This document shows, one piece after another, positions 2,148-64,000 of a stretch of 64,000 nt of DNA; within the stretch, counting starts at the first letter, position 1; each line of letters starts with the position of its first letter. Location of the stretch: positions 1,083,001-1,147,000 of the forward strand of contig JAYKKM010000310.1 of the NCBI GenBank assembly GCA_035772405.1, written 5' to 3'. This DNA comes from Chrysogorgia sp. JL179-B06 (Eukaryota; Cnidaria; Anthozoa; Scleralcyonacea; Chrysogorgiidae). The notes under the pieces are model-generated. The model was not told the origin of the DNA, did no database searches, and saw only the letters and a program-made list of their open reading frames with translations. Both the position numbers and the translations under genes were made by a program.

Positions 2148-2929
2148 GAAGAAGCTATTTTGGAGATAGAAAATACATTTTTGTTGTCAAATGTTTATTG
2201 TTAAGTTGACAAGTGTCAGATATATTTGAGAAATGGCTGACTAAATACACGTATATGCCAACAGCATAATAGACTACATGTACCTGAAATCCTAATCCTG
2301 CCTAAATTACATATACTAATCATAATCGAAGCTAAAATATTAATACAACGATAAAGAAATAATTTTCTTCAAAGAAACAGAACTGTTGCTCTTAAATTGT
2401 TTTGTGTGATGAAAACTTGTCCTTTTGAGTCACAGTTTTGAGTCATATAGCACTCACAGATTACCAGTTGAGTCAACCATTGCCAGTAGCCCAAAAGTAT
2501 GTTTAAATACATATCACATTGCTATAGCAATAAAATTGTCTATATTATTACATACATAAAGTTGTGTTTTTTTAATGATGTATTCATTTTTTACCAACAA
2601 ATACCACTGCTTGATATTTTGTTGATATTGACAGTCTAACCCTTGGTGATTGACACCTCTCGTAATGGGTGATCAATTCTTACTGTAGCGTGTGTTCCAG
2701 TGACCAAATTGCGTGTGTCTTGCACTAAGCCACTGCTCGGAGAATGATGTCAGTAAATAGAACATCAGTCAATATGACATCAGTGAGTTGTAGAGTGATC
2801 GTAACTAAAATTAAAATTTGACTAGCTGACCGACAAATTGCAGGCTCAGGTTACTTCTTCACGATATGACATCTTGACCACATGCATAATCAAACTGTTA
2901 AGGTATACAAGGGGTTCGATTGTATTTAC
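2148..2929. other. No recognisable feature
   Basis: AT-rich spacer between the HECT remnant and the minus-strand integrase remnant. No supported coding motif or repeat was seen. Confidence 0.5.
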
Positions 2930-3863
2930 CTATATAACAAAATTCTCCCTTGTCATAAACCAGAAATCTGTAACAATCTTTGCAGAAGTTCCAAACCCTC
3001 TCCAATTGGTGGGCTTTGAAAGTCCACATGTATCGACCACATATTGACAATTTTCGAAGCTGCTATCTTCATCTTTCTCCACAAGATGATTTCTTGCATA
3101 ATTTATTTGGTCTTCATGAACATTTAAAATAATGTTAGCTGTACCACCATGTTCTTGGGGTAATAAATATAAAGCGTTCTGCCTTCCGGAAATAGTATGG
3201 TGTCTTGATTTCCTTATCTTGTGAGTGTTCCAATGTTCCATGGTTCTGTCAAGATCGTTTTGAATTAACTCGGCAAAACAAAACCATAAACAGTCTCTTT
3301 GGAAGCCAGGATCTGTGTTTATGTTTCGTTTTTGGACAAGATCTTTAAGAAAGTTCATCCACCATGTCGTTCGGCTTCGAGGTAGGGATGACCAAAATCC
3401 CTCTTCGCTACTATTATGGAAGAAACACTGAATAGCTGCCATGGTACTGTTTTCTGTTCCAAGGTCAGTGTAAACCTGGACAGGGCATCCTCCATGTTTT
3501 TCTACCCTACCAGAAAATAAGATGCAATTTTATCAGGATAATTGTTGGAGTGGGTGACTATCAACCAAATAAGTTTAAGACTCCAGCCATCAATGCACCT
3601 GTGTACAGCAAACCCATAAACCCTTCTATTCAGCTTGTGAGCCCTACACATATCACAACCATCTGGGTCAAGTTCTTAAAAGAAGCTGAACAATTACCTG
3701 TGGAATTCGGTGACCTTTTCACTTGTAATGTATGCCAAACATACCTCTATCCACCAAGGCATTCGGGTCCATCAAGAAGCGCTTTGACTTCGTTCACAAT
3801 CGAATCAAATCGTATTCAGCATTTCTCCGGCTAACACCGTATTGTTTTAGACGACGCTGCAAA
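2930..3863 (-). pseudogene. DDE integrase-core gene remnant
   Basis: Read on the minus strand from 3863 to 2930, this is a nearly complete but frameshifted DDE integrase of the kind found in many copies in cnidarian and fish genomes. In order: a helix-turn-helix-like stretch (RRLKQYGVSRRNAEYDL), a WHTLQ block, a catalytic block with CIDGW, a second block TDLGTEN about 40 residues later, then an intact 170-residue tail at 2930-3442 with QCFF, WWMNFLKDL, DLDRTMEHWNTHKIRKS and a LYLLP block. About 25 residues before CIDGW, where the family usually has a WHVDG-type motif, are missing, and at least two frame changes and several stops are present. RNase H-like catalysis of DNA strand transfer is the family role. 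I infer an inactive transposon-derived copy. Confidence 0.65.
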
Positions 3864-6038: not shown

Positions 6039-6304
6039 GCCATTTTTTTAACAGCTTTATTGGACATGTCTATATGATATTCTAATAAAAATACATAGAT
6101 ACAAGAAAAAATAAAAGATGGCCCCAACATAGTTTGCACGAACGGGACACGGTCCTATGTGAGGCGCAGCCCTACGGTAGGTATAAATCCTTTCAACATG
6201 TAGTATGATCGAGTGAAATGCCAAATATTACCTATAATATAACCAGAATCTTATCCCGGCATTATCACCATATATACAGAACTCGTGACTAGGCTCTCGG
6301 CAAC

Positions 6305-6379
6305 GGCTTCCGTAGCTCAGTGGTCAGAGCACTGCACTAGCAATCGCAGAGTCGCGGGTTCAATTCCAGCCGGAAGGCC
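6305..6379 (+). tRNA. tRNA-like sequence, unit 1
   Basis: The arms can be laid out as a tRNA: a GGCTTCCG acceptor strand pairs with CGGAAGGCC with one bulged base, the D arm is GCTC/GAGC, the anticodon loop is CTAGCAA, and the T loop contains GGGTTCAATTCC. The anticodon stem needs a bulged C and the T stem has a mismatch. The D arm and A box resemble animal tRNA-Thr genes, but the loop would read AGC (Ala). I infer a tRNA-derived pseudogene within a satellite, not a working tRNA. Confidence 0.45.
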
Positions 6380-6580
6380 GCTAAGTTGCATTTTTCGCAA
6401 CTGGTCCCGGTTTGGTCTTAAAATGTATGTATTCCAACACTCGAAATTTTCCTTCACCATAAATCCTTTCAACATGTAGTTTGATCGAGTGAAATGCCAA
6501 ATATTACCTATAATATAACCAGAATCTTATCCCAGCATTACCACCATATATACAGAACTCGTGACCAGGCTCTCGGCAAC

Positions 6581-6655
6581 GGCTTCCGTAGCTCAGTGGT
6601 CAGAGCACTGCACTAGCAATCGCAGAGTCGCGGGTTCAATTCCAGCCGGAAGGCC
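6581..6655 (+). tRNA. tRNA-like sequence, unit 2
   Basis: Identical to unit 1 in the tRNA-like segment, with the same bulged anticodon stem. Confidence 0.45.
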
Positions 6656-6856
6656 GCTAAGTTGCATTTTTCGCAACTGGTCCCGGTTTGGTCTTAAAAT
6701 GTATGTATTCCAACACTCGAAATTTTCCTTCACCATAAATCCTTTCAACATGTAGTTTGATCGAGTGAAATGCGAAATATTACCTGTAATATAACCAGAA
6801 TCTTATCCCGGCATTACCACCATATATACAGAACTCGTGACTAGGCTCTCGACAAC

Positions 6857-6931
6857 GGCTTCCGTAGCTCAGTGGTCAGAGCACTGCACTAGCAATCGCA
6901 GAGTCGCGGGTTCAATTCCAGCCGGAAGGCC
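6857..6931 (+). tRNA. tRNA-like sequence, unit 3
   Basis: Same tRNA-like segment as unit 1. The base before the segment differs (gacaac), which marks the second monomer type of the dimer. Confidence 0.45.
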
Positions 6932-7132
6932 GCTAAGTTGCATTTTTCGCAACTGGTCCCGGTTTGGTCTTAAAATGTATGTATTCCAACACTCGAAATT
7001 TTCCTTCACCATAAATCCTTTCAACATGTAGTTTGATCGAGTGAAATGCCAAATATTACCTATAATATAACCAGAATCTTATCCCAGCATTACCACCATA
7101 TATACAGAACTCGTGACCAGGCTCTCGGCAAC

Positions 7133-7207
7133 GGCTTCCGTAGCTCAGTGGTCAGAGCACTGCACTAGCAATCGCAGAGTCGCGGGTTCAATTCCAGCCG
7201 GAAGGCC
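7133..7207 (+). tRNA. tRNA-like sequence, unit 4
   Basis: Same segment as unit 2, first monomer type of the dimer. Confidence 0.45.
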
Positions 7208-7408
7208 GCTAAGTTGCATTTTTCGCAACTGGTCCCGGTTTGGTCTTAAAATGTATGTATTCCAACACTCGAAATTTTCCTTCACCATAAATCCTTTCAA
7301 CATGTAGTTTGATCGAGTGAAATGCGAAATATTACCTGTAATATAACCAGAATCTTATCCCGGCATTACCACCATATATACAGAACTCGTAACTAGGCTC
7401 TCGACAAC

Positions 7409-7483
7409 GGCTTCCGTAGCTCAGTGGTCAGAGCACTGCACTAGCAATCGCAGAGTCGCGGGTTAAATTCCAGCCGGAAGGCC
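7409..7483 (+). tRNA. tRNA-like sequence, unit 5
   Basis: As unit 3, but the B-box region reads GGGTTAAATTCC, a further departure from the consensus. Confidence 0.4.
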
Positions 7484-7684
7484 GCTAAGTTGCATTTTTC
7501 GCAACTGGTCCCGGTTTGGTCTTAAAATGTATGTGTTCCAACACTCGAAATTTTCCTTCACCATAAATCCTTTCAACATGTAGTTTGATCGAGTGAAATG
7601 CCAAATATTACCTATAATATAACCAGAATCTTATCCCAGCATTACCACCATATATACAGAACTCGTGACCAGGCTCTCGGCAAC

Positions 7685-7759
7685 GGCTTCCGTAGCTCAG
7701 TGGTCAGAGCACTGCACTAGCAATCGCAGAGTCGCTGGTTCAATTCCAGCCGGAAGGCC
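7685..7759 (+). tRNA. tRNA-like sequence, unit 6
   Basis: As unit 2, with gtcgctgg instead of gtcgcggg in the T-arm region. This is the last unit before the (TA)n tract. Confidence 0.4.
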
Positions 7760-7953
7760 GCTAAGTTGCATTTTTCGCAACTGGTCCCTGTTTGGTCTTA
7801 AAATGTATGTATTCCAACACTCGAAATTTTCCTTCACCATAAATCCTTTCAACATGTAGTTTGATCGAGTGAAATGCCAAATATTACCTATAATAATACA
7901 TATATATATATATATATATATATAGAATAACTGGACACGCGGTTACACTTTCG

Positions 7954-8023
7954 ACATTAGTTTATTGCATACAGTTCTGTTTCGTACAGGCGAACCTGCA
8001 CTCATCAGTGCTAGACTAAATGT
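7954..8023 (-). ncRNA. Hammerhead ribozyme, left arm
   Basis: On the minus strand the core CTGATGA (8002-8008) is followed by stem II (GTGCAGG, TTCG loop, CCTGTAC), then GAAA and a short stem III ACAG/CTGT ending in GTA, the expected cleavage triplet. Helix I forms from ACATTTAGT with ACTAATGT plus GCA with TGC. All conserved core positions that I can check are present. Self-cleavage is inferred, not shown. Confidence 0.8.
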
Positions 8024-8135
8024 GACTTATAAAAACACCTACAGCACCACAAGCATCATATTATATTACATCTTCCGTTACTGGCCTATCTTATAACATT
8101 ATGAGATCACGCCTGTAATTAGAGACTTTGCGTGT

Positions 8136-8336
8136 TTAACTCGTAAAGACGTTCCTTAATAGAAATTTCGCTTTATGTCTACACTTGCTAACTAGTTCGT
8201 TCCGTTTGTTCAAGGTTGCGCTCCGTGGTTTGCATAAAATATAAAACTTCTCTTCTGTACATAGATTACATCGTTTCGTGATATTAGAATAGTGGGGAGC
8301 ACGGCATAAAATGTTCCATTTGATAGCGTAGTTCAA
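8136..8336 (-). pseudogene. GIY-YIG endonuclease C-terminus of a Penelope-like element (left arm)
   Basis: About 65 residues with KWNILCRAPHYS, KRCNLCTEEKFYILC and a final NKRNELVSKCRHKAKFLL block. The paired cysteines and the CRH motif are typical of the zinc-binding tail of Penelope-like GIY-YIG endonucleases, which nick target DNA for integration. The catalytic GIY and YIG motifs lie upstream in the family and are missing, because the palindrome centre truncates the gene. The frame ends with a normal stop, so this is the true C-terminus. Confidence 0.75.
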
Positions 8337-8342
8337 ATTTTC

Positions 8343-8537
8343 TACGCTATCAAATGGAACATTTTATGCCGTGCTCCCCACTATTCTAATATCACGAAAC
8401 GATGTAATCTATGTACAGAAGAGAAGTTTTATATTTTATGCAAACCGCGGAGCGCAACCTTGAACAAACAGAACGAACTATTTAGCAAGTGTAGACATAA
8501 AGCGAAATTTCTATTAAGGAACGTCTTTACGAGTTAA
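8343..8537 (+). pseudogene. GIY-YIG endonuclease C-terminus of a Penelope-like element (right arm)
   Basis: Mirror copy of the left-arm fragment, reading outward to the right and ending at a stop at 8535-8537. It keeps the same Cys-Cys and CRH motifs. Differences include NKQNELFSKC against NKRNELVSKC. There is no start codon, because the 5' part is lost at the palindrome centre. Confidence 0.75.
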
Positions 8538-8649
8538 ACACACAAATTCTCTAATTACAGGCATGATCTCATAATGTTATAAGATAGGCCAGTAACGGAA
8601 GATGTAATATAATATGATGCTTGTGGTGCTGTAGGTGTTTTTATAAGTC

Positions 8650-8719
8650 ACATTTAGTCTAGCACTGATGAGTGCAGGTTCGCCTGTACGAAACAGAATT
8701 GTATGCAATAAACTAATGT
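8650..8719 (+). ncRNA. Hammerhead ribozyme, right arm
   Basis: Core CTGATGA at 8665-8671; stem II GTGCAGG (8672-8678) with loop TTCG and CCTGTAC (8683-8689); GAAA at 8690-8693; a minimal stem III (ACA/TGT) leading to GTA with predicted cleavage after 8703. Helix I is built from GCA (8662-8664) with TGC (8704-8706) and the distal pairing ACATTTAGT (8650-8658) with ACTAATGT (8712-8719). This is the type I layout with a short helix III described for Penelope-like elements. Confidence 0.85.
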
Positions 8720-8811
8720 CGAAAGTGTAACCGCATGTCCAGTTATTCTATATATTTGCTCTACCGATGGTATCGAGCACTCTCGAAACACAAACACAAG
8801 ATCTCTATTTG

Positions 8812-8849
8812 ATATATATATATATATTTATATATATATATATATATAC
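8812..8849. repeat. (TA)n microsatellite
   Basis: An interrupted TA run just beyond the right arm of the palindrome. A matching TA run borders the left arm at 7902-7924. Confidence 0.9.
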
Positions 8850-9049
8850 ATAAAAGTTTAAGCCCGATGACAGGGGCAGTCGTGCACAAGCGACCATGTG
8901 CAGGACATGTGTCTATATCAAAAGTATTATTAAGTAAAGAAAAATATAAGTAACAAAGAAAACCCTTAAAAGAAGCAGCACTATGGAAAGTATGTACAAT
9001 GGGGCTAACTTGCAAATAAAGTTCCAGGGTTTAACAAAATTGTGTTAAA

Positions 9050-10170
9050 ATACGAAGCTTGTTGCATTAATAATAATAATTTACACATTTCAGTAGGGTA
9101 GCGCCCTACATATAGTTAAATTAATACAGATAAGTTAAAAAATTAATATACAAGATTGAAAAGGTATATACAGTTAATGTCTAAAATAAAACAAGGAATT
9201 TAAGCTATAAAATTTAAAATTATTTTATAGTCATTATAAAGTTTCTTAAAATCATTTACTGATATATTAAGTCTTTGGACCATTTACGCCCTTGTCTATT
9301 GAATCCAGATTCACTGCTACACACGAGGTATACTAAAACAATTATGCACCTCATGGTTGGTGAAATATCGTGTCTCTAAATAGCCATCACTATGGATTAT
9401 ACCAGTGGGCCTTTCCTACAGGCCCCACCACACCCTTCGAAAAAAGAGAAGGAAAAGCAAAAAAAAGAAAGTTTTACTTATAGGTACTCCTTTTATATAT
9501 CCAATTATTAGTTTTCAAATTGTATATTTCAATAAAGATACACAATTTTTAAAAAGACAGAACACACGTTCAAGTGCATTAAGCAGTTGAAATCCATGTC
9601 CAGTTTACATATCCCGCCATACTGAAATCTGCATGCAAAGCATGGTACCCCTTTACCAACAAATCCTAATTTAAACCATATCTGATCATACATCTGAAAA
9701 TAACATATGCTTTGGTCACTATGTATAGTTGTAAAGTAGGAGAAATAGATCAATCAAATTCACAAAGTTTGTTGTTCAAACAATAATATTAAAGTAATAC
9801 ATACATATATATACAACTGTATGACATGTACAGTATATATACAACTGAACAACAGAACAATAATATAAAATATATAAATAATATTTGTTCATATTGTCAA
9901 AAACTCCCTTGATACTGACTTCTTATTTGCTAGTCATTTCTCATTAGAATTTCAATGACAACAAGATAATTTGGAACACAACGTTTTGTTAATAACAATG
10001 TAAAATAGTGGCTTAGGTAAAGTTCATCGTTGCTTTTGCTACTTGGGGTAAACATTGATAATGTTCATCTGGTCATTGTATTTGCAATCAAAGTTCCCAG
10101 ATAATAGCAGGTCAATCTCTGTCATTGGCTCCTGGACTTTCTTATGCGTAATCTGACACAAGTGTGGTCC
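9050..10170. other. No recognisable gene
   Basis: AT-rich sequence. A short hairpin-like stretch near 9408-9425 (gggcc...ggccc) and A-rich runs are the only structure seen. No coding motif can be supported. Confidence 0.4.
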
Positions 10171-12045: not shown

Positions 12046-12182
12046 TGTTATGTTATATGAAGTATCATATTACTTCACTGTGAGCCCACGAACAGGAAGA
12101 TATATAAGGCACTCCCATGTACTCACTGTATTTAGTCTTTGATAGTCTTAGTAGAACTAACATATTAAAGTCTAACACAACA
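12046..12182 (+). repeat. 5' LTR
   Basis: 137 bp, starting TGTTATG and ending AACA. It contains a TATA-like gatatataagg near 12098-12108 and an aataaa-like downstream signal (catattaaag). It aligns with the 3' LTR with a few substitutions and small indels. Confidence 0.9.
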
Positions 12183-12229
12183 TCGTGGCAGCGGTGGATG
12201 AACCCTATATAGCCTATTACTAGAAGAAA

Positions 12230-12742
12230 ATGCTAAACGAGCAAGAATCTCAGCCACAAGTCCAGTTATCTGGAATCTCTCCACCGAAGCCGCTTCGAAT
12301 GGTCGGTGATAACCTCGCTGAAATATGGAGGTTGTGGAAACAACAGTGGGAAAATTACGCTATTGTGGCACAACTGGACGGACGACCTGAGAAATTTCGA
12401 GTTGCGATGTTTCTACATGCTGTTGGTCCCGACGGGCTGAAGGCGTATAACACAATGACTTTCCAAGGTGAAGCGACATTAAAGGGCATTCTCGAAAGTT
12501 TTGACCAACTGGTAATTGGTAAGCTAAATGAGACATATGAACGATACATCTTTAATCAGAAAGATCAAGAGTCCGGAGAAAACGTTGCACAATACGTTAC
12601 AACACTCAGAGCACTCGCTCGGACATGTAACTTCGGCGATTTACAAGATAGTCTGTTAAGAGACAGGATTGTTCTTGGCGTGAATGATTCAACTACGCGA
12701 AAGAAACTGCTTCAAGAAAGAGACTTGATGCTGGAACGCTGA
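12230..12742 (+). pseudogene. Gag capsid region
   Basis: 170 codons from an ATG 48 bases after the LTR. The core WKQQWENYAIVAQL... FLHAVGPDGLKAYNTM is a retrotransposon gag capsid-type domain that builds the particle. A TGA at 12740-12742 interrupts the frame; the expected continuation (DICKGSEATRLQ) follows directly in the same frame, so the stop is a mutation and not the natural end. Confidence 0.85.
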
Positions 12743-12792
12743 AAAGATATCTGCAAAGGGTCGGAAGCAACTAGACTCCAGAGATAAAAGCA

Positions 12793-13608
12793 ATGGATGC
12801 TGTCGCTGACAAAGTGATCAATAAACTGGAAAGAAGAAGAAAACCAAAGATACAACAACCCGCCTTGGCACGTGAATGCAAATTTTGTGGTTTGAAGTAC
12901 GAGATGGTAAAGTCCAAGTGTCCTGCTTTGGGTAAGACATGTAATTTGTGTAAAAAACGTAATCATTTTGTCGCTAAATGCCCTAAGAAAGAGAAGATAA
13001 GTAATGTCGAAGATACCGATTCCTCGAGTGAATTGTCGTCGGACATTGACTATATCAGTACAGTGACTATGATAAACTCCCTTGAGGGTAGATCATCCTC
13101 TGCTATATATGCAAATATGTTGATAAATAACCGGTATGTTAAATTCCAAATTGATTGTGGTGCTTCTGTTAATACAATTCCCAAATGTCTAGTACCAGCT
13201 ACATTAGGGCCCACCATTAGCCTAAAAATGTGGAATTCCTCAAAGGTTCAAGCCGTAGGTTTGTGTCTTATGAACGTAACAAATCCAAGCAACAATAAGA
13301 AGTATTCAGTAGAATTTGTCGTAGCAGACGATAACGGCCTGACCCCTCTCCTGGGTTCCAAAGCGTCGCAACATATGGGACTAATAACTGTTAACTCGGA
13401 CAGTTTTGTTTGTATGAATGTTAGCCCTATCTCGCAGCAAACACCTGATAAATCTATTCAGGAAGAATTTGGTGACGTATTTGATGATTCCCTTGGAAAA
13501 TTGCCTGGTACAGTTCACTTAGAGACTGATCCATCAATAAAACCAACTGTATTGCCTCAGACGCGTACCTCGTGCTATAAAGTCCCAGTTGAAATTAGAG
13601 TTAGGTGA
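12793..13608 (+). pseudogene. Nucleocapsid zinc knuckles, aspartic protease and start of reverse transcriptase
   Basis: This frame holds two zinc-knuckle motifs. The first, CKFCGLKYEMVKSKC, has Tyr where His is expected. The second, CNLCKKRNHFVAKC, is intact. The retropepsin motif FQIDCGASVNTIP follows, with DCGA in place of DTGA or DSGA at the active site. The usual linker to the RT N-terminus comes next (EEFGDVFDDSLGKLPG). The frame is lost near 13600, inside the RT domain. Confidence 0.85.
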
Positions 13609-14078
13609 TATGGTTAAGGGAATTTTGAGCCCGGTCGACCAACCAACAGAGTGGGTAAGCCAGTTCGTAGTTTGTCGAAAGAAATCTGGCCAATTGAGAA
13701 TATGTATCGACCCAAAACACTTGAATAAAGCCCTGAGCGAGAACATTATCATTTACAAGTTTTGGATGATGTTCTCCCCTGTCTCAATAATGCGAAAGTA
13801 TTTTCGAAGCTTGATCTAGCATCTGCGCTTTCTGGCATATCCAACTTGATAAAGAATCAAGTCTCTTAACCACTTTCAACACACCTTTCGGAAGGTATAG
13901 GTGGTTGCGATTACCGTTTGGTATCAAGGTCTCATCGGAAATTTTTCAAAAGCATCTGAACCAGGTCCTGGAAGGGTTAACCGGGGTAATTTGCATTGCA
14001 GATGACATCATAGCATATGGGTGTGGCGACACAATCGAAGAGGCACAACGTGATCATGATATCAACCTAACTTGCTGA
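13589..14078 (+). pseudogene. Reverse transcriptase palm and fingers
   Basis: Parts in three frames: WVSQFVVCRKKSGQLRICID at 13589-13752, then a frameshift near 13755, then AFWHIQLDKESSL, TPFGRYRWLRLPFG and the catalytic box ICIADDI (13995-14009, the xxDD motif). Reverse transcriptase copies the element RNA into DNA. The frameshifts are fatal for this copy. Confidence 0.85.
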
Positions 14079-14731
14079 AGAGATGCAGAGAGAAGAATAT
14101 CGAACTCGGGCGTGACAAGTCGGTGTTCAACTGTTCGGAAATACCATTTATGGGACACTTGATCACAAAAGAAGGGTTAAAATCAGATCCTGTAAAAATC
14201 GAAGCCATTGTCAAGATGACAAAGCCAACTGATGTAAAGAGTTTGCAAAGATTCATCGGATTCGTCACCTACCCAAGTCGATTCCTACCTGACCTCTCAG
14301 ACATCCTAGAGCCACTACGACAACTGACAAGATCCGATAGAGTATGGTCGTGGAACCAAACACATGACAAGATATTCGATGATGTGAAACGCCTAGTAAC
14401 GGCAAGTCCTGTTCTGACCTACTACAACCCTGAAGAAGACCTCGCAATCCAGTGCGATAGTAGCGGTACTGGAGTTGGAGTAGCTTTACTTCAAAGAGAT
14501 CAACCCGTAGCATATGCAAACCGCGCTTTAGCGGATGTGGAAACCCGTTACGCACCTATTGAGAAAGAAATGTTAGCAGTCGTCTACTCGATTGAGAGTT
14601 TCCATCAGTATACGTATGAAAGACATACCACCGTCTACAGCGATCACAAACCTCTGGAGATGATATTGAAGAAACCTCTCATTAAAACACCGAAGAGACT
14701 CCAGAATGATCCTAAGAGTACAGAAATATGA
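14072..14731 (+). pseudogene. RT thumb/connection and RNase H
   Basis: 219 open codons: FMGHLITKEGLKSDP, then the RNase H domain with LAIQCDSSGTGVGVALLQ, YAPIEKEMLAVVYSIE and HTTVYSDHKPLEMI. The family's catalytic acids (D in CDSS, E in EKEMLAV, D in YSDHKP) are visible. A frameshift at the end separates it from the integrase frame. Confidence 0.85.
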
Positions 14732-15386
14732 TTTCACGCTCATCTATAAGCCTGGGAAAACCGTGTATCTTGCTGACACCTTATCAAGAGCTCATATTAC
14801 CAGGGACAAAGATCCAATCCTTGAGCAAGCAGACATAAATGTGGTAACTTACCTCCCCATGAGTGACGAGCGCTTGAGTGAAATCAAGAGGGAAACGGAA
14901 CAAGACAACACTTTGCAACACCTCAAGACAACCATCATTCGAGGATGGCCCGAGGAACGTTCGAAATTAGCTGAAGAACTGTTACCCTACTGGAGCTACC
15001 GAGATGAATTGTCCATTCATGATTCGCTGGTGTTCAAAGGCCAACAAGTCGTTATACCGTTCAATCTTCGAAAAGAGATGATGGTAAGAATTCACTCAGC
15101 ACATCTAGGCGTTGACGGTTGTTTAAGAAGAGCAAGAGTATCCTGTTTTTGGCCAAGAATGTCAAGTGATCTGAAAGAATACATCCTAGCATGTGAAACA
15201 TGCTGTACCTATAGTAGTTCTCAGCAGAAAGAGAAACTACGCCCTCATGAAGAAGTAACTCGGCCCTGGGAAAAGGTTGGATCAGACCTGTTCAGTTTGG
15301 AAGGAAGAAATTACCTAATAACTGTTGATTATTTCAGTAACTTTTGGGAGATTTATTATCTACCTACGACAACGCCGCTGCAGTAA
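14706..15386 (+). pseudogene. Integrase zinc-binding domain and start of catalytic core
   Basis: The frame begins with the RNase H-integrase linker (YKPGKTVYLADTLSRA), then the HHCC zinc-binding domain (HSAHLGVDGCLRRAR ... ILACETC) and the first catalytic Asp in VGSDLF. The second Asp (SDNGPQYTS, about 15438-15466) lies after a frameshift near 15385. Confidence 0.85.
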
Positions 15387-15555
15387 TTAACAAGACCAAA
15401 GCCCATTTTGCCAGATATGGAAGCCCAAATGTGTTTATAAGCGACAATGGTCCACAATATACCTCAGTCTTTTGAAAGATTTGCGAAAGCATGGGACTTT
15501 GAACATCGTACTATATCCCATAGATATAGGGAAGGTAGTTCCAATTGGAAGGTAG

Positions 15556-15625
15556 GTTTAGCAGTTTTGACGGCTGACTCTACCTTCCAATGGGAAGGTA
15601 GAGTCAGCCGTCAAAACTGCTAAAC
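15556..15625. repeat. 33-bp perfect inverted duplication inside integrase
   Basis: 15556-15588 and 15593-15625 are exact reverse complements separated by aatg. The right arm carries the expected integrase sequence around the catalytic Glu (GKVESAVKTAK); the left arm is an inverted extra copy that replaced coding sequence. Confidence 0.9.
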
Positions 15626-15630
15626 AGCTA

Positions 15631-16348
15631 TTGAGAAAGAGCATAGAGGCAAAGACTGACCAATACGTAGCCTTGTTGGATCACAGGAACACGCCTACAC
15701 AAGGTTTGACAACTAGCCTGGCACAGAGATTAATGAGTCGAAGGACAAGAACATTAATACCGACAACTGCTGAATTACTTGTACCAAGAGTGGTACAAGA
15801 AACCGAGCAAATATCACGACCTAAATGCAAAGTCCCTACCCCCACTGGATTTAGGAGATATTGTAAGAATGAAGCCGTTTGTGCTTGGTGATAAGAAGTG
15901 GAAGAAAGCATTAGTGACCAAACGATTAGAGGATAGATCGTATTTAATTGAAACCAGTCATGGTCGATCCTACAGACGAAATAGAGTGGACTTACGAAAA
16001 ACTATGGAATCTCCGCCAGAAGTACGAGACATTTCTTGGCCATGTTCCTCGACCAATACCAAGAAAGAGCTAATAGAAACAGGTAGTTCAGAAAGGCGAG
16101 GAAGTTCGAAAGCCGAAGAAGAAGATCCAGAAAATGAATCTGCGACAAAGGAAGAGAACCGTACAGTAACGAGACATACGCTTATGTCTGACAAACTTCC
16201 AAATAGTGAATCTGCGACAGAGGAAGAGAAGCGTACAGCAACGAGACAGACGCCTATGTCTGATAAATTGCCAAACAAAAAGAACGATTCAGGATATACA
16301 ACACGATATGGAAGAACAGTAAAACCACCAGAAAGATTTAACATGTAG
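15631..16348 (+). pseudogene. Integrase C-terminal domain
   Basis: The integrase C-terminal region appears in two overlapping frames. From 15631: TPTQGLTTSLAQRLMSRRTR. From 15779 to the stop at 16346: WYKKPSKY, GDIVRMKPFVLGDKKWKKA and SYLIETSHGRSYRRNRVDLR, a DNA-binding SH3-like tail. The last part has a tandem 72-bp duplication (ESATKEENRTVTRH... and ESATEEEKRTATRQ...), each repeat ending MSDKLPN. Confidence 0.8.
16134..16275 (+). repeat. Tandem 72-bp duplication in the integrase tail
   Basis: Two in-frame copies encode a 24-residue acidic repeat that ends MSDKLPN. The repeats differ at several positions, including synonymous changes, so the duplication is not the newest event. Confidence 0.8.
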
Positions 16349-16514
16349 TCTTTAGATATTTATCTTCTATTGAACTTCATGATTGAACTTCACAGAAACA
16401 GATATTATTTTTGTAGGGAGCACGAAACATTTAAAAAAAAATCTATATTTATTACAATTATATATTATTACATGTACTATTGATAGGAATTTTTTTTTTT
16501 AATAAGTATAGGGA

Positions 16515-16656
16515 TGTTATGTTATATAGGTTATATGAAGCATCATTACTTCATTGTGAGCCCACGAACAGGAAGATATATAAGGCACTCCCATGTACTG
16601 TATTTAGTCTTCGATAGTCTTAGTAGAACTAACATATTAAAGTCTATAACACAACA
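16515..16656 (+). repeat. 3' LTR
   Basis: 142 bp, starting TGTTATG and ending AACA, matching the 5' LTR. A short purine-rich stretch (ataggga) precedes it and may be a decayed polypurine tract. The target duplication tgcac follows at 16657-16661. Confidence 0.9.
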
Positions 16657-17044
16657 TGCACTTTAGCACTGTCTGGTTTTCTTTTTTTTCGGTGAGATAA
16701 ACACTTTCCAACTTAAACATTCTAGAGCAAACTCAGCCCCTCACACAAACACTCAACAAACCATTCGGATTCCCTTGTTGCCTGTTGGTATAAAAGACAA
16801 TATATAAAAGTACCTACCAAACAGACCCCCAACTAAAAAATGTTTTCAAAAATCTCTAATTAAGAAAGCGACGGTGTTCTCCACAGCAGAAAGACAATAC
16901 CAAGTATCCACCAACAAAAAAGCAACTCCAAGCAAACGACACAGTTCTCCACTGCAAAAAATACAATATATCTATATCCACCAAGAAGATTTATAACAAA
17001 AAATCAACTCTCCAAGCAACCGACTCAGCTCACCACTGCAAAAG

Positions 17045-19138: not shown

Positions 19139-19978
19139 AGTGAGGGTATGCCTAAATATTCGACCAGTCGTTCGATTCGTCCAAGACTTCAATTGGTCCG
19201 GTCGTGATGAGTGGTTAAGTCTTAGTAATGATGTCTTGTGGTGTAGTGTGAGGGTATGCCTAGATATTCGTCCGGTCGTTCGATTCGTCCAATTGGTCTG
19301 GTCGTGACGAGTGGTGAAGTCTTGGTAATGATGTCTTGTGGTGTAGTGTGAAGGTATGCCAAAATATTCGTCTGGTCGTTCGACTTGTCCAATTGGTGCG
19401 GTCGTGACGATTCGTCCAAGACTTCAATTGGTCCGGTCGTGATGAGTGGTTAAGTCTTAGTAATGATGTCTTGTGGTGTAGTGTGAGGGTATGCCTAGAT
19501 ATTCGTCCGGTCGTTCGATTCGTCCAATTGGTCTGGTCGTGACGAGTGGTGAAGTCTTGGTAATGATGTCTTGTGGTGTAGTGTGAGGGTATGCCAAAAT
19601 ATTCGTCTGGTCGTTCGACTTGTCCAATTGGTGCAGTCGTGACGATTCGTCCAAGACTTCAATTGGTCCGGTCGTGATGAGTGGTTAAGTCTTAGTAATG
19701 TCTTGTGGTGTAGTGTGAGGGTATGCCTAGATATTCGTCTGGTCGTTCGATTCGTCCAATTGGTCTGGTCGTGACGAGTGGTGAAGTCTTGGTAATGATG
19801 TCTTGTGGTGTAGTGTGAGGGTATGCCAAAATATTCGTCTGGTCGTTCGACTTGTCCAATTGGTGCGGTCGTGACGAGCGGAACGAGTGGTGAAGTCTTA
19901 GTAATGATGTCTTGTGGTGTAGTGTGAGGGTATGCCTAGATATTCGTCCGGTCGTGACGAGTGGTGAAGTCTTAATAA
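19139..19978. repeat. Complex satellite with 235-bp higher-order unit
   Basis: Each higher-order unit has a 98-bp block (gtatgcctagatattcgtcc ... ggtgaagtcttggtaatgat) and a 137-bp block (gtatgccaaaatattcgtct ... with an inserted gattcgtccaagacttcaat). The blocks are themselves related and built from gattcgtcc/ggtcgtgacgag words. About three and a half cycles are present and the last is truncated. Long minus-strand frames across it repeat every 235 bp and are not genes. Confidence 0.85.
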
Positions 19979-61127: not shown

Positions 61128-61878
61128 TGAAGATTTTCGTCACAGTTTTCGGTTCATGAGATGCATAATGATGGAAGTCATTTGCTATTTTTATCATTCA
61201 CCAGCAAAATCATGCAGGGAGTGTTATACAGTGCGAAGTGATTAAAAATTAAATGAGGCGAGAAGCCGTTGTTTTTGTCCGCCCATGACAGCCAAAGACA
61301 ATAGCTTTGGGGAAAAATCAATGACAAAATGAAGTGTAAATATCTAATTTTTGTCTGCTCATGATGGACAAAAATGACAACCTCACACATGCGATTAGAT
61401 AAAAGAAAACCATTCGTTAAGCTGTCTGTGGGGATGAATGGTTCCAATTTAAAAAATGAGAAATGAAACTGGGCAACAAGTTTAATCTTTATATTTCATA
61501 TAGTAATGGTAGTTGTTCAGATAAAGATGTTCTTCAAACTATTGTCTGAAGTAAACTAACACTGTAGCTCTTAATGGTGGCCTCAGGGTATAATAACTTT
61601 GTTTACTTTCCATTCTCAACAGCAGACACAACGTTTAGTACTTATTCTCTTCTAATGAATGTCGTGTGACCACAAATATTGAGTTATTTAAATATAGCGT
61701 CTGCATGGTCATGTATATAAGCATGTCAAGCTTGGTTTTTATTTGGTGTTTCGTTATTATTCTTTTTGAATTTTGGTGGCTTTTATAAAAGCCGTTTTAG
61801 TTTTACAGGGAACAGGTTGACCATTTACTTCATATTCCCAATAACGATGTGTTAATTAAGTCTCTTGTGCGGTTGACT

Positions 61879-62029
61879 GGCTGACGTTTCATATAAATAT
61901 CCCGAATTTAAAACATAGTCCTAACCCTACACCTAATACTAACCCTAACTCTTATGATAATGCTTTAATTTCGAATTTTACTACCCATAGTCTATAGTGA
62001 CGTCATTTCGGGATTTATATGAAACTTCA
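61879..62029. mobile_element. Small foldback element with telomere-like interior
   Basis: gtttcatataaatatcccga at the left and tcgggatttatatgaaac at the right are inverted repeats. tgcggttgact flanks the unit at 61868-61878 and 62030-62040, an 11-bp direct repeat. The interior has tcctaaccctacacc and actaaccctaac words. Confidence 0.55.
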
Positions 62030-62696
62030 TGCGGTTGACTTCACTTGCTCTTCCTGAATAGAGTTGCAACAGTCACTGAACGTTTCATATTGGTTATAAA
62101 GCGATTTGTGTTCCTGTGTTGTTAATGGGATATATGTTGTCTACGTTAGTGGTCCGAAAGTCTTGATACAGCAACATTGAAATATCGACAACCAAGAACA
62201 AGACAAGGTCTTCTAATACGCTGATCTCCTGAAGATTTCTGGCGGATATTTCGTTCCTTGGTGTTTGCTATTGGGAACCTATTGAGCTGGTCCATTGTAA
62301 TTCCAGTATGCACTCAAGTGTTGATCCAGTCGCTCAAATAATATTCCACTCTGAGTGCACCCACTCACTAGACAAACTCCACTAGACATCATTGCGGCAC
62401 AGGCTAGCCCTGGGTACGAGATTTTTACACATTAGCAAAATGAGAAAGCTACGAATGATGAGTCATCGATCCAAAATACAATGCATTAGCGACTGCATGT
62501 CAGCTTAATATAAAAATTGAATAAGGTCAAAATTTAATAGTCTTTGGAATCGGTAACAAAAAAATATTCACGCGCTATTAAAAAATACATACGATTTTTA
62601 TTCCCAAGTTGTTAAGGAATGCAAACGAACGAGTGAATAATAAAAATCGTATAAACGAACCAATCATGAAGTAATTTGTTTATTTTATAAGTATAT

Positions 62697-62882
62697 TTAT
62701 TTTGAAAGGACAGATATAACAAACTCGCTCAAGTAAACATTGAGTTCCACTGGCGAAATATCCTCAATTTTTCTTAAGTTATTCCTTAAAGACAAAAATG
62801 ATTGAAGAAGTGCAACGTCCTCTTGTAGTTTCGTTCTCCTGACCTTCGATGAATTCCTGTACAGAGCTGGGTATCTCTGCAA
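62697..62882 (-). pseudogene. Crypton-type recombinase N-terminal exon
   Basis: Minus strand, after an acceptor-like ggtttgcag: KVRRTKLQEDVALLQSFLSL, then RKIEDISPVELNVYLSEFVI and a stop. The pattern (an amphipathic helix, then a D-I-x-P-x-ELN-x-YLSEF helix) matches the core-binding domain of Crypton-derived tyrosine recombinases. No catalytic part is present on this side. Confidence 0.45.
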
Positions 62883-63636
62883 ACCATAAAGCTATTTTCC
62901 AACTGAGTAATTAGCCATGCGCAATTAGCCATGCGTATAATAAAAGCGAAGGCCGAGCAGAACAGAATTTGGTTGGCTGTAGAAACATTTGATTTTTGTG
63001 TTAGATTCGCCATAATCATTGCCTTGCAGTATGGCTTGATTTGGCACAGGTCACACAATGAACGCTGACTGTAAAAATCTCATCTTGCAGAAACTTAAGA
63101 TATAAATTGATAAGATTAGGGGAACCTTGCTTGTTGAGGAAGCTATATAATTTTAATGGGACCGTGTTGGTAGAGGTAAACTAACTTGGGAACTTTTAGA
63201 GCACCTTATTTCAGGTCTGTACTCGACAGAGACATGAGGCTAACCAACTACAATCATTGTTATTCTACCAGAATATATCAGCGAAAATTCCCTGCGTGCT
63301 TTAGTTCAGAGCTATAGATAAGAATATAGTGAAACAGACATTGTACGTTGACAATAAATTATTTGGTTCATTACATAATGAAGTTATCTGTAATATTTTG
63401 ACATCACGACAGTCTGGAGAAATATTACAACTTGACTATATTTTGCTAAACCTTGTTTAATAATCCTGATCTGGCCCAAATATCGCACTTAGCCACCTGA
63501 TCAAAACATGTATCAACTCCTAATTAATTTTGCCAATTTTACATGTTTAACTAAAACTTTGTCTCATACTTCTGTCTTATTTTGTTCTTTTTTAGTTCAT
63601 TTTTTTAGGTTATTTTTATTGATTATATATCTGTAT

Positions 63637-63658
63637 GTATATATATATATATATATAT
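63637..63658. repeat. (TA)n microsatellite
   Basis: TA run near the window end. The rest of 62900-64000 has no recognisable gene; a tggctttt/aaaagcca hairpin at 63741-63758 resembles one near 61779-61796. Confidence 0.9.
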
Positions 63659-64000
63659 TTTTTAAGTCAACTCTATAAATACGTATAGTTAATGCCTAAC
63701 TGCATTCTGTGTTTCGTTTGTATTCTTTTTAATTTTTGTGGCTTTTAAAAAAGCCATTGTAAGGATTTACGATATTAACAATCCCAGAACTTGGAAATCA
63801 GTTTGCATAAAGTGCAAATACACATGTCTCTTAAATGAGGCACCACATTGCTGTTTTTAAGTTGTTTTATCTTTATTTTATTTTTACGTCTTTGTAACTT
63901 TGTTAACCTAACTATCTTTTAACTTGAAATATGTTATATATATTGATTTATTTACTTCGGGGACATAGTAATTGGATTAACCAGCTGTAATATATCATAT

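Follow-up and report, generated by a model that had tools for sequence, protein, structure and literature searches.

A probable dead Penelope-like element, present as a head-to-head dimer with two hammerhead motifs, in Chrysogorgia DNA

We analysed a stretch of 64,000 nucleotides from Chrysogorgia sp. JL179-B06 (assembly GCA_035772405.1, contig JAYKKM010000310.1, positions 1,083,001 to 1,147,000 of the forward strand), hereafter the window, in which a sequence-only reading had pointed out two hammerhead ribozymes facing outward from one palindrome. With a probability that we put at roughly 0.87, this locus is a dead, 5′-truncated Penelope-like element (PLE), present as a head-to-head inverted dimer within an AT microsatellite, each half of which keeps the end of the open reading frame (ORF), its stop codon and a pseudo-long terminal repeat (pseudo-LTR) region with a type I hammerhead.

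An inverted-repeat search delimited a left arm at 7918-8331, whose copy lies on the minus strand, and a right arm at 8342-8755, whose copy lies on the plus strand. The arms are 414 nt each, 98% identical and separated by a 10-nt spacer (8332-8341); aligned with each other, they differ by eight substitutions and no insertion or deletion, and their GC content is 0.36-0.38. Matches to proteins show that both are PLE copies truncated at the 5′ end, and that the sense 5′ ends face each other at the centre, that is, head to head. No direct repeat of the 414-nt unit was found within 7600-9100 or elsewhere in the window. AT tracts flank the palindrome on both sides; Tandem Repeats Finder placed the left one at 7896-7924 and the right one at 8812-8852, presumably the two sides of a split target. 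Such flanks fit the preference of PLEs for AT-rich targets (PMC3846280, PMC11167929).

Read outward from the centre, each arm holds 64 codons and a stop, followed by a 3′ region with the hammerhead. On the minus strand (8136-8339, stop TAA at 8138-8136) the translation is ENLNYAIKWNILCRAPHYSNITKRCNLCTEEKFYILCKPRSATLNKRNELVSKCRHKAKFLLRNVFTS, whose opening residues are read across the spacer, NLN being added to the 64 arm codons. The spacer on that strand continues the protein of the left copy, with N-L ahead of NYAIKW where the relatives P0007, P0008 and P0009 have NNLNYAIKW or NNLDYAIKW, so that the two copies start about 10 nt apart or less, the left one being up to 10 nt longer. On the plus strand (8343-8537, stop TAA at 8535-8537) the same protein is read from YAIKW on, with two residue changes. 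In the right arm an arginine that is nearly invariant at this end of the protein is gone, a loss in keeping with decay of the copy.

A search with the protein piece alone recovered four of four candidates, and a padded search that admitted longer proteins recovered 17 of 23 at E≤0.01, with identity up to 91% over the shared part. The match sits at or near the C-terminus of the relatives, six of which are 664-715 amino acids long, and the stop codon of the arms coincides with the stop position of most of them. Few relatives carry source names (Holothuria leucospilota, Solemya velum, Watersipora subatra), and yet the family is large: with the full-length relative P0009 as query, at least 2244 proteins scored E≤1e-10 among 7995 candidates scored. 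The best structural matches of a model of the relatives' reverse transcriptase include telomerase, and the relatives therefore have the telomerase-like reverse transcriptase ORF that is expected of PLEs. The list of structural matches hardly covers model residues beyond 477, so for the GIY-YIG-like domain we depend on sequence: PF01541 (GIY-YIG), the other domain expected of PLEs, was detected in the relative P0024 at 26.2 bits (cut-off 22.6) in two stretches, and the PF01541 stretch aligns with approximately residues 594-617 of P0009, just upstream of the part retained in the window. P0024 (Solemya velum, 1086 amino acids) is a predicted protein that holds much of the PLE ORF twice in a row, as if a tandem had been translated through. 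A first structure model, built from 19 sequences, was poor (predicted local distance difference test, pLDDT, 62.7) and was not used.

Since the relatives carry a telomerase-like reverse transcriptase and a GIY-YIG-like domain, the element is assigned to the PLEs; judged from sequence comparison, the arms code for the end of a PLE protein of about 700 amino acids with a reverse transcriptase and a C-terminal GIY-YIG-like domain. The sequence-only reading had noted that hammerheads are known in PLEs, and this link is now made by protein homology. Among 20 window ORFs scanned with Pfam, the two in the arms had no domain, a scan of three relatives with NCBIfam gave only matches far below the cut-offs, and a profile search of PDB sequences gave no match. 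In viral contigs, PLE alignments yielded 41 and 11 pattern stretches, none of which was confirmed as a relative.

A strict hammerhead descriptor found exactly two sites in the window, on opposite strands and facing outward as first described; 150 first-order random windows of 64 kb contained no such site. A relaxed descriptor found the same two sites and none in 200 random windows; neither gave a further hammerhead in the window. The plus-strand motif (8648-8722, C3 at 8665, predicted cut after 8703) comprises CTGATGA, a seven-pair stem II with a UUCG loop, GAAA, a GUA triplet, a helix III of three pairs (A15.1-U16.1, C-G, A-U) with a GAAU loop, and three helix-I pairs adjoining the core. Helix I is open, and the features of a type I hammerhead (core, stem II, short helix III, NUH triplet, helix I) are thus all found. 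The minus-strand motif (7951-8025, C3 at 8008, predicted cut after 7970) has the same layout with a GAAC loop on helix III; this loop position is the one of the eight arm differences that falls inside the hammerhead, and it leaves the pairs unaffected. The arms mirror one and the same sequence, and the two motifs therefore count as a single observation. Folding and descriptors thus bore out the full core that had been reported, together with the three inner helix-I pairs, whereas the outer part of the helix I reported with it is weaker evidence: plain co-folding was equalled by 1091 of 5000 flank shuffles, and co-folding with the core held in hammerhead form by 134 of 20,000.

Relatives recovered as DNA give the strongest evidence for a genuine hammerhead. 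A scan of genome contigs retained, from 33 pattern stretches, two loci that encode relatives, L003 and L004, which we infer to be animal DNA within bacterial assemblies. L003 (3787 bp) is itself a head-to-head inverted dimer (1-1519 against 2241-3734, 92%), coding for P0009 residues 252-697 on the minus strand and 3-697 on the plus strand, the latter with a frame change. It carries a hammerhead core and stem II (CTGACGA GTGC GTAA GCAC GAAAC) at 3762, where the contig end interrupts the motif. L004 is a head-to-tail tandem, with P0009 residues 324-698 at 2-1126 and then 1-271 at 1436-2248; the region between the two ORFs holds a complete hammerhead (C3 at 1256), in which stem II has a U-U mismatch at its foot, helix III has three pairs and a three-base loop, and helix I has six pairs. 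C3 follows the stop codon at 128 nt in the window, against 125 nt in L003 and 127 nt in L004, and the proteins of these loci are only about 50% identical to that of the window over the shared end. Different helices with pairing kept, at a matching place, argue that the motif is a true hammerhead, and a position held constant in three members of the family, 125-128 nt past the stop, suggests that it has retained a role in the processing of tandem PLE transcripts. Copies in tandem or inverted order, the arrangement that goes with pseudo-LTRs, occur in all three (head to head in the window and L003, head to tail in L004). Exact patterns of the window and L003 hammerheads had no match in viral contigs; a loose pattern matched twice, in stretches that resemble each other and look coding by eye (L001, L002), and these were taken as chance.

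The palindrome could be read as an inverted pair of animal non-LTR retrozymes, non-coding units of 170-400 nt with a type I hammerhead that spread through circular RNA. The arms do resemble these in their length of about 400 nt, GC content, type I layout and short helix III with a four-base loop, as in the retrozymes of invertebrates (PMC7229834). Retrozymes are, however, described there as non-autonomous direct tandem repeats, whereas the unit here is inverted and encodes a PLE C-terminus whose stop is in register. We rejected this reading, which keeps a probability of a few percent, on finding a coding and inverted arm in place of a non-coding direct tandem.

When the whole palindrome (7918-8760 or 7954-8760) was folded at equilibrium, each ribozyme was paired with its own antisense in the opposite arm, and the hammerhead pairs therefore had probability 0.0. 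For transcripts beginning at 8200 or later, stem II reached 0.96-0.99 and helix I 0.65-0.87; with a start at 8010 stem II was kept and helix I lost, and the right arm alone gave 0.96-0.97 and 0.73-0.75. In a palindrome-wide transcript, for which a hairpin of about 400 bp is predicted, the ribozymes would thus be masked by the opposite arm. Such a transcript would be cut near its 3′ end only, and nothing that we found defines a 5′ end. The sequence-only reading had proposed a very long hairpin with defined ends; this idea is doubtful and was not supported, since cleavage would have to precede the pairing of the arms with each other, and even then it would define the 3′ end only.

The same predictions bear on the idea that the palindrome is functional, its double-stranded hairpin transcript feeding small-RNA silencing of the PLE family while the hammerheads trim the 3′ end. 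A 400-bp hairpin is indeed what folding predicts, and in Adineta vaga small RNAs arise from PLE copies, mainly antisense, with a switch of polarity between inverted halves (PMC3846280). But the ribozymes are masked in the whole hairpin, and two changed residues in the protein end of the right arm, one of them nearly invariant, are what a decaying copy would have. We regard this idea as very improbable. No special function is needed to account for the inverted arrangement, because it is a described form of PLE insertion (PMC3846280) and recurs in L003.

An inverted chimera made during assembly or library preparation is still less probable. Short-spacer palindromes can come from library chimeras, but the arms here differ by substitutions, their flanks differ, and the spacer continues the PLE coding sequence in one arm only. 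Least probable is a foldback DNA transposon or miniature inverted-repeat transposable element with 400-bp inverted ends, a TA target duplication and PLE sequence by chance: it would explain a long, near-perfect inverted repeat within a TA repeat, but not why the whole arm reads as a single PLE 3′ end whose stop and hammerhead are spaced as in the family, nor why L003 is inverted in the same way, with an almost full-length ORF and its junction at another point.

The closest likeness to the dimer is found in the Penelope elements of Adineta vaga (2013, PMC3846280), which share with it head-to-head inverted copies, a junction palindrome, AT-rich targets, 5′ truncation and, less certainly, an optional extra tail carried by one inverted repeat. 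There the inverted part is usually a pseudo-LTR beside a longer ORF copy, whereas in the window the two halves are truncated at almost the same point, which leaves a nearly perfect palindrome whose arms are 10 nt apart. The word hammerhead does not occur in the available text of that paper. PAc, a Poseidon PLE of Anolis (2024, PMC11167929), likewise has a protein with reverse transcriptase and GIY-YIG, a hammerhead in the element and an AT-rich target; its ORF, however, starts at stem II of the hammerhead, while in the family studied here the hammerhead lies 125-128 nt after the stop of the previous ORF and, in L004, about 150 nt before the next ORF. PLE hammerheads as described by Cervera and de la Pena (2014, via PMC7761336) agree with ours in type I layout, short helix III and pseudo-LTR location, but are minimal and usually lack the non-conserved part of helix III, where the window has three pairs and a four-base loop. 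No hammerhead pair within one PLE palindrome was described in the literature searched, a search whose scope excluded key papers of 2014 and 2017 and from which we claim no absence from print. The head-to-head arrangement itself is already described for PLEs, and the locus is otherwise ordinary, not a new kind of RNA machine.

Beyond the coding end, family, hammerhead position and inverted layout established above, we infer the course of insertion. The PLE enzyme would have nicked the AT repeat and copied its own RNA from the 3′ side inward, halting near the end of the ORF. The 3′ end of the cDNA could then have folded back and primed its own second strand (hairpin self-priming), a product that on one strand would read antisense copy, short loop, sense copy, the order found on the plus strand. 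By our own estimate, two independent even truncations over the 2.1-kb ORF would agree within 10 nt by chance in about 1% of cases, and a linked event is for this reason likelier. Such evenness is not shared by all dimers of the family, because the copies of L003 start at different residues and its dimer ends are unequal. Both arms retain the sequence on either side of the cut site; the copied RNA was therefore uncut there, which fits the finding that hammerhead cleavage is dispensable for insertion of PAc in vitro (PMC11167929). The ribozymes would be passengers, probably cutting ordinary PLE transcripts.

Several points weigh against the reading as a PLE dimer made in this way. The evidence for the element in this genome is one locus within the 64-kb window. 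The covariance models that had been named as a check found no hammerhead family at its gathering score in the window; at a loose threshold the only hammerhead rows were of Hammerhead_3, at 17.1 and 15.0 bits against a threshold of 48.5 (E 1.8 and 7). Rfam also fails to call the L004 hammerhead, and microRNA-type rows over the palindrome centre, below their gathering scores, reflect the hairpin. In the folding calculations the probability of helix III was at most 0.018, and a non-hammerhead fold was favoured by 3.3 kcal/mol in the absence of tertiary terms; such folding energies are a poor guide for a short helix III. GIY-YIG reached the Pfam cut-off in one of the 14 relatives scanned, and a precomputed PF01541 assignment stood for P0024 only, among the 120 matches listed. 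A target duplication is indistinguishable inside an AT repeat. The spacer has no clear priming duplex except AAATTT, so self-priming is not directly visible, and a template switch to a second RNA could yield a similar product. In Adineta vaga, too, head-to-head copies with junction palindromes are ascribed to self-priming, but on an antisense template, which self-priming of inverted copies would need (PMC3846280).

A more speculative view, which we hold tentatively and consider rather unlikely as a whole, is that the locus is the fossil of a hairpin cDNA made by snap-back priming and that loci of this family bring hammerheads under their own antisense, such that their transcripts resist self-cleavage and the long double-stranded RNA could feed silencing. 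The steps of PLE insertion after the first strand are described as awaiting validation (PMC3846280, PMC11167929), and head-to-head dimers cut at one point would be a natural record of how it proceeds. In so large a family (at least 2244 relatives), counting junctions across a genome would make self-priming testable.

Between the right arm and the right AT tract, 8756-8811 (plus strand) may belong to the right copy as additional 3′ sequence, comparable to the optional PLE tail. The stretch has a predicted stem-loop and an AC-rich part, and local similarity to the region between the L004 ORFs is weak and no more than suggestive, its score being reached by 91 of 2000 shuffles and exceeded at other places in L003 and L004. 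Past the L004 hammerhead and ahead of the next ORF, at 1337-1435, lie two GCTC...GAGCACT stretches that resemble stem-loops, and GAGCACTCTC is common to L004 at 1411, in the second of these, and to the window at 8775-8784.

The remainder of the window holds other features. About six tandem 276-bp units, 97% alike, occupy 6183-7895 and contain six tRNA-like genes with a four-base anticodon (agca) according to ARAGORN; the array ends where the AT tract beside the palindrome starts. The eight Rfam matches at gathering score in the window are six tRNA and two histone 3′ stem-loops, the latter at 61754-61798 and 63715-63760 on the minus strand (36.3 bits each, cut-off 34); no histone was evident by eye in the three stop-to-stop ORFs of at least 60 amino acids at 61750-64000. 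An LTR-retrotransposon-like element with RNase H and integrase zinc domains spans 12049-16657, between direct repeats at 12049-12183 and 16527-16657 (91%), and at 19140-19955 lies a satellite-like array whose 235-bp units have 100-bp repeats nested in them.
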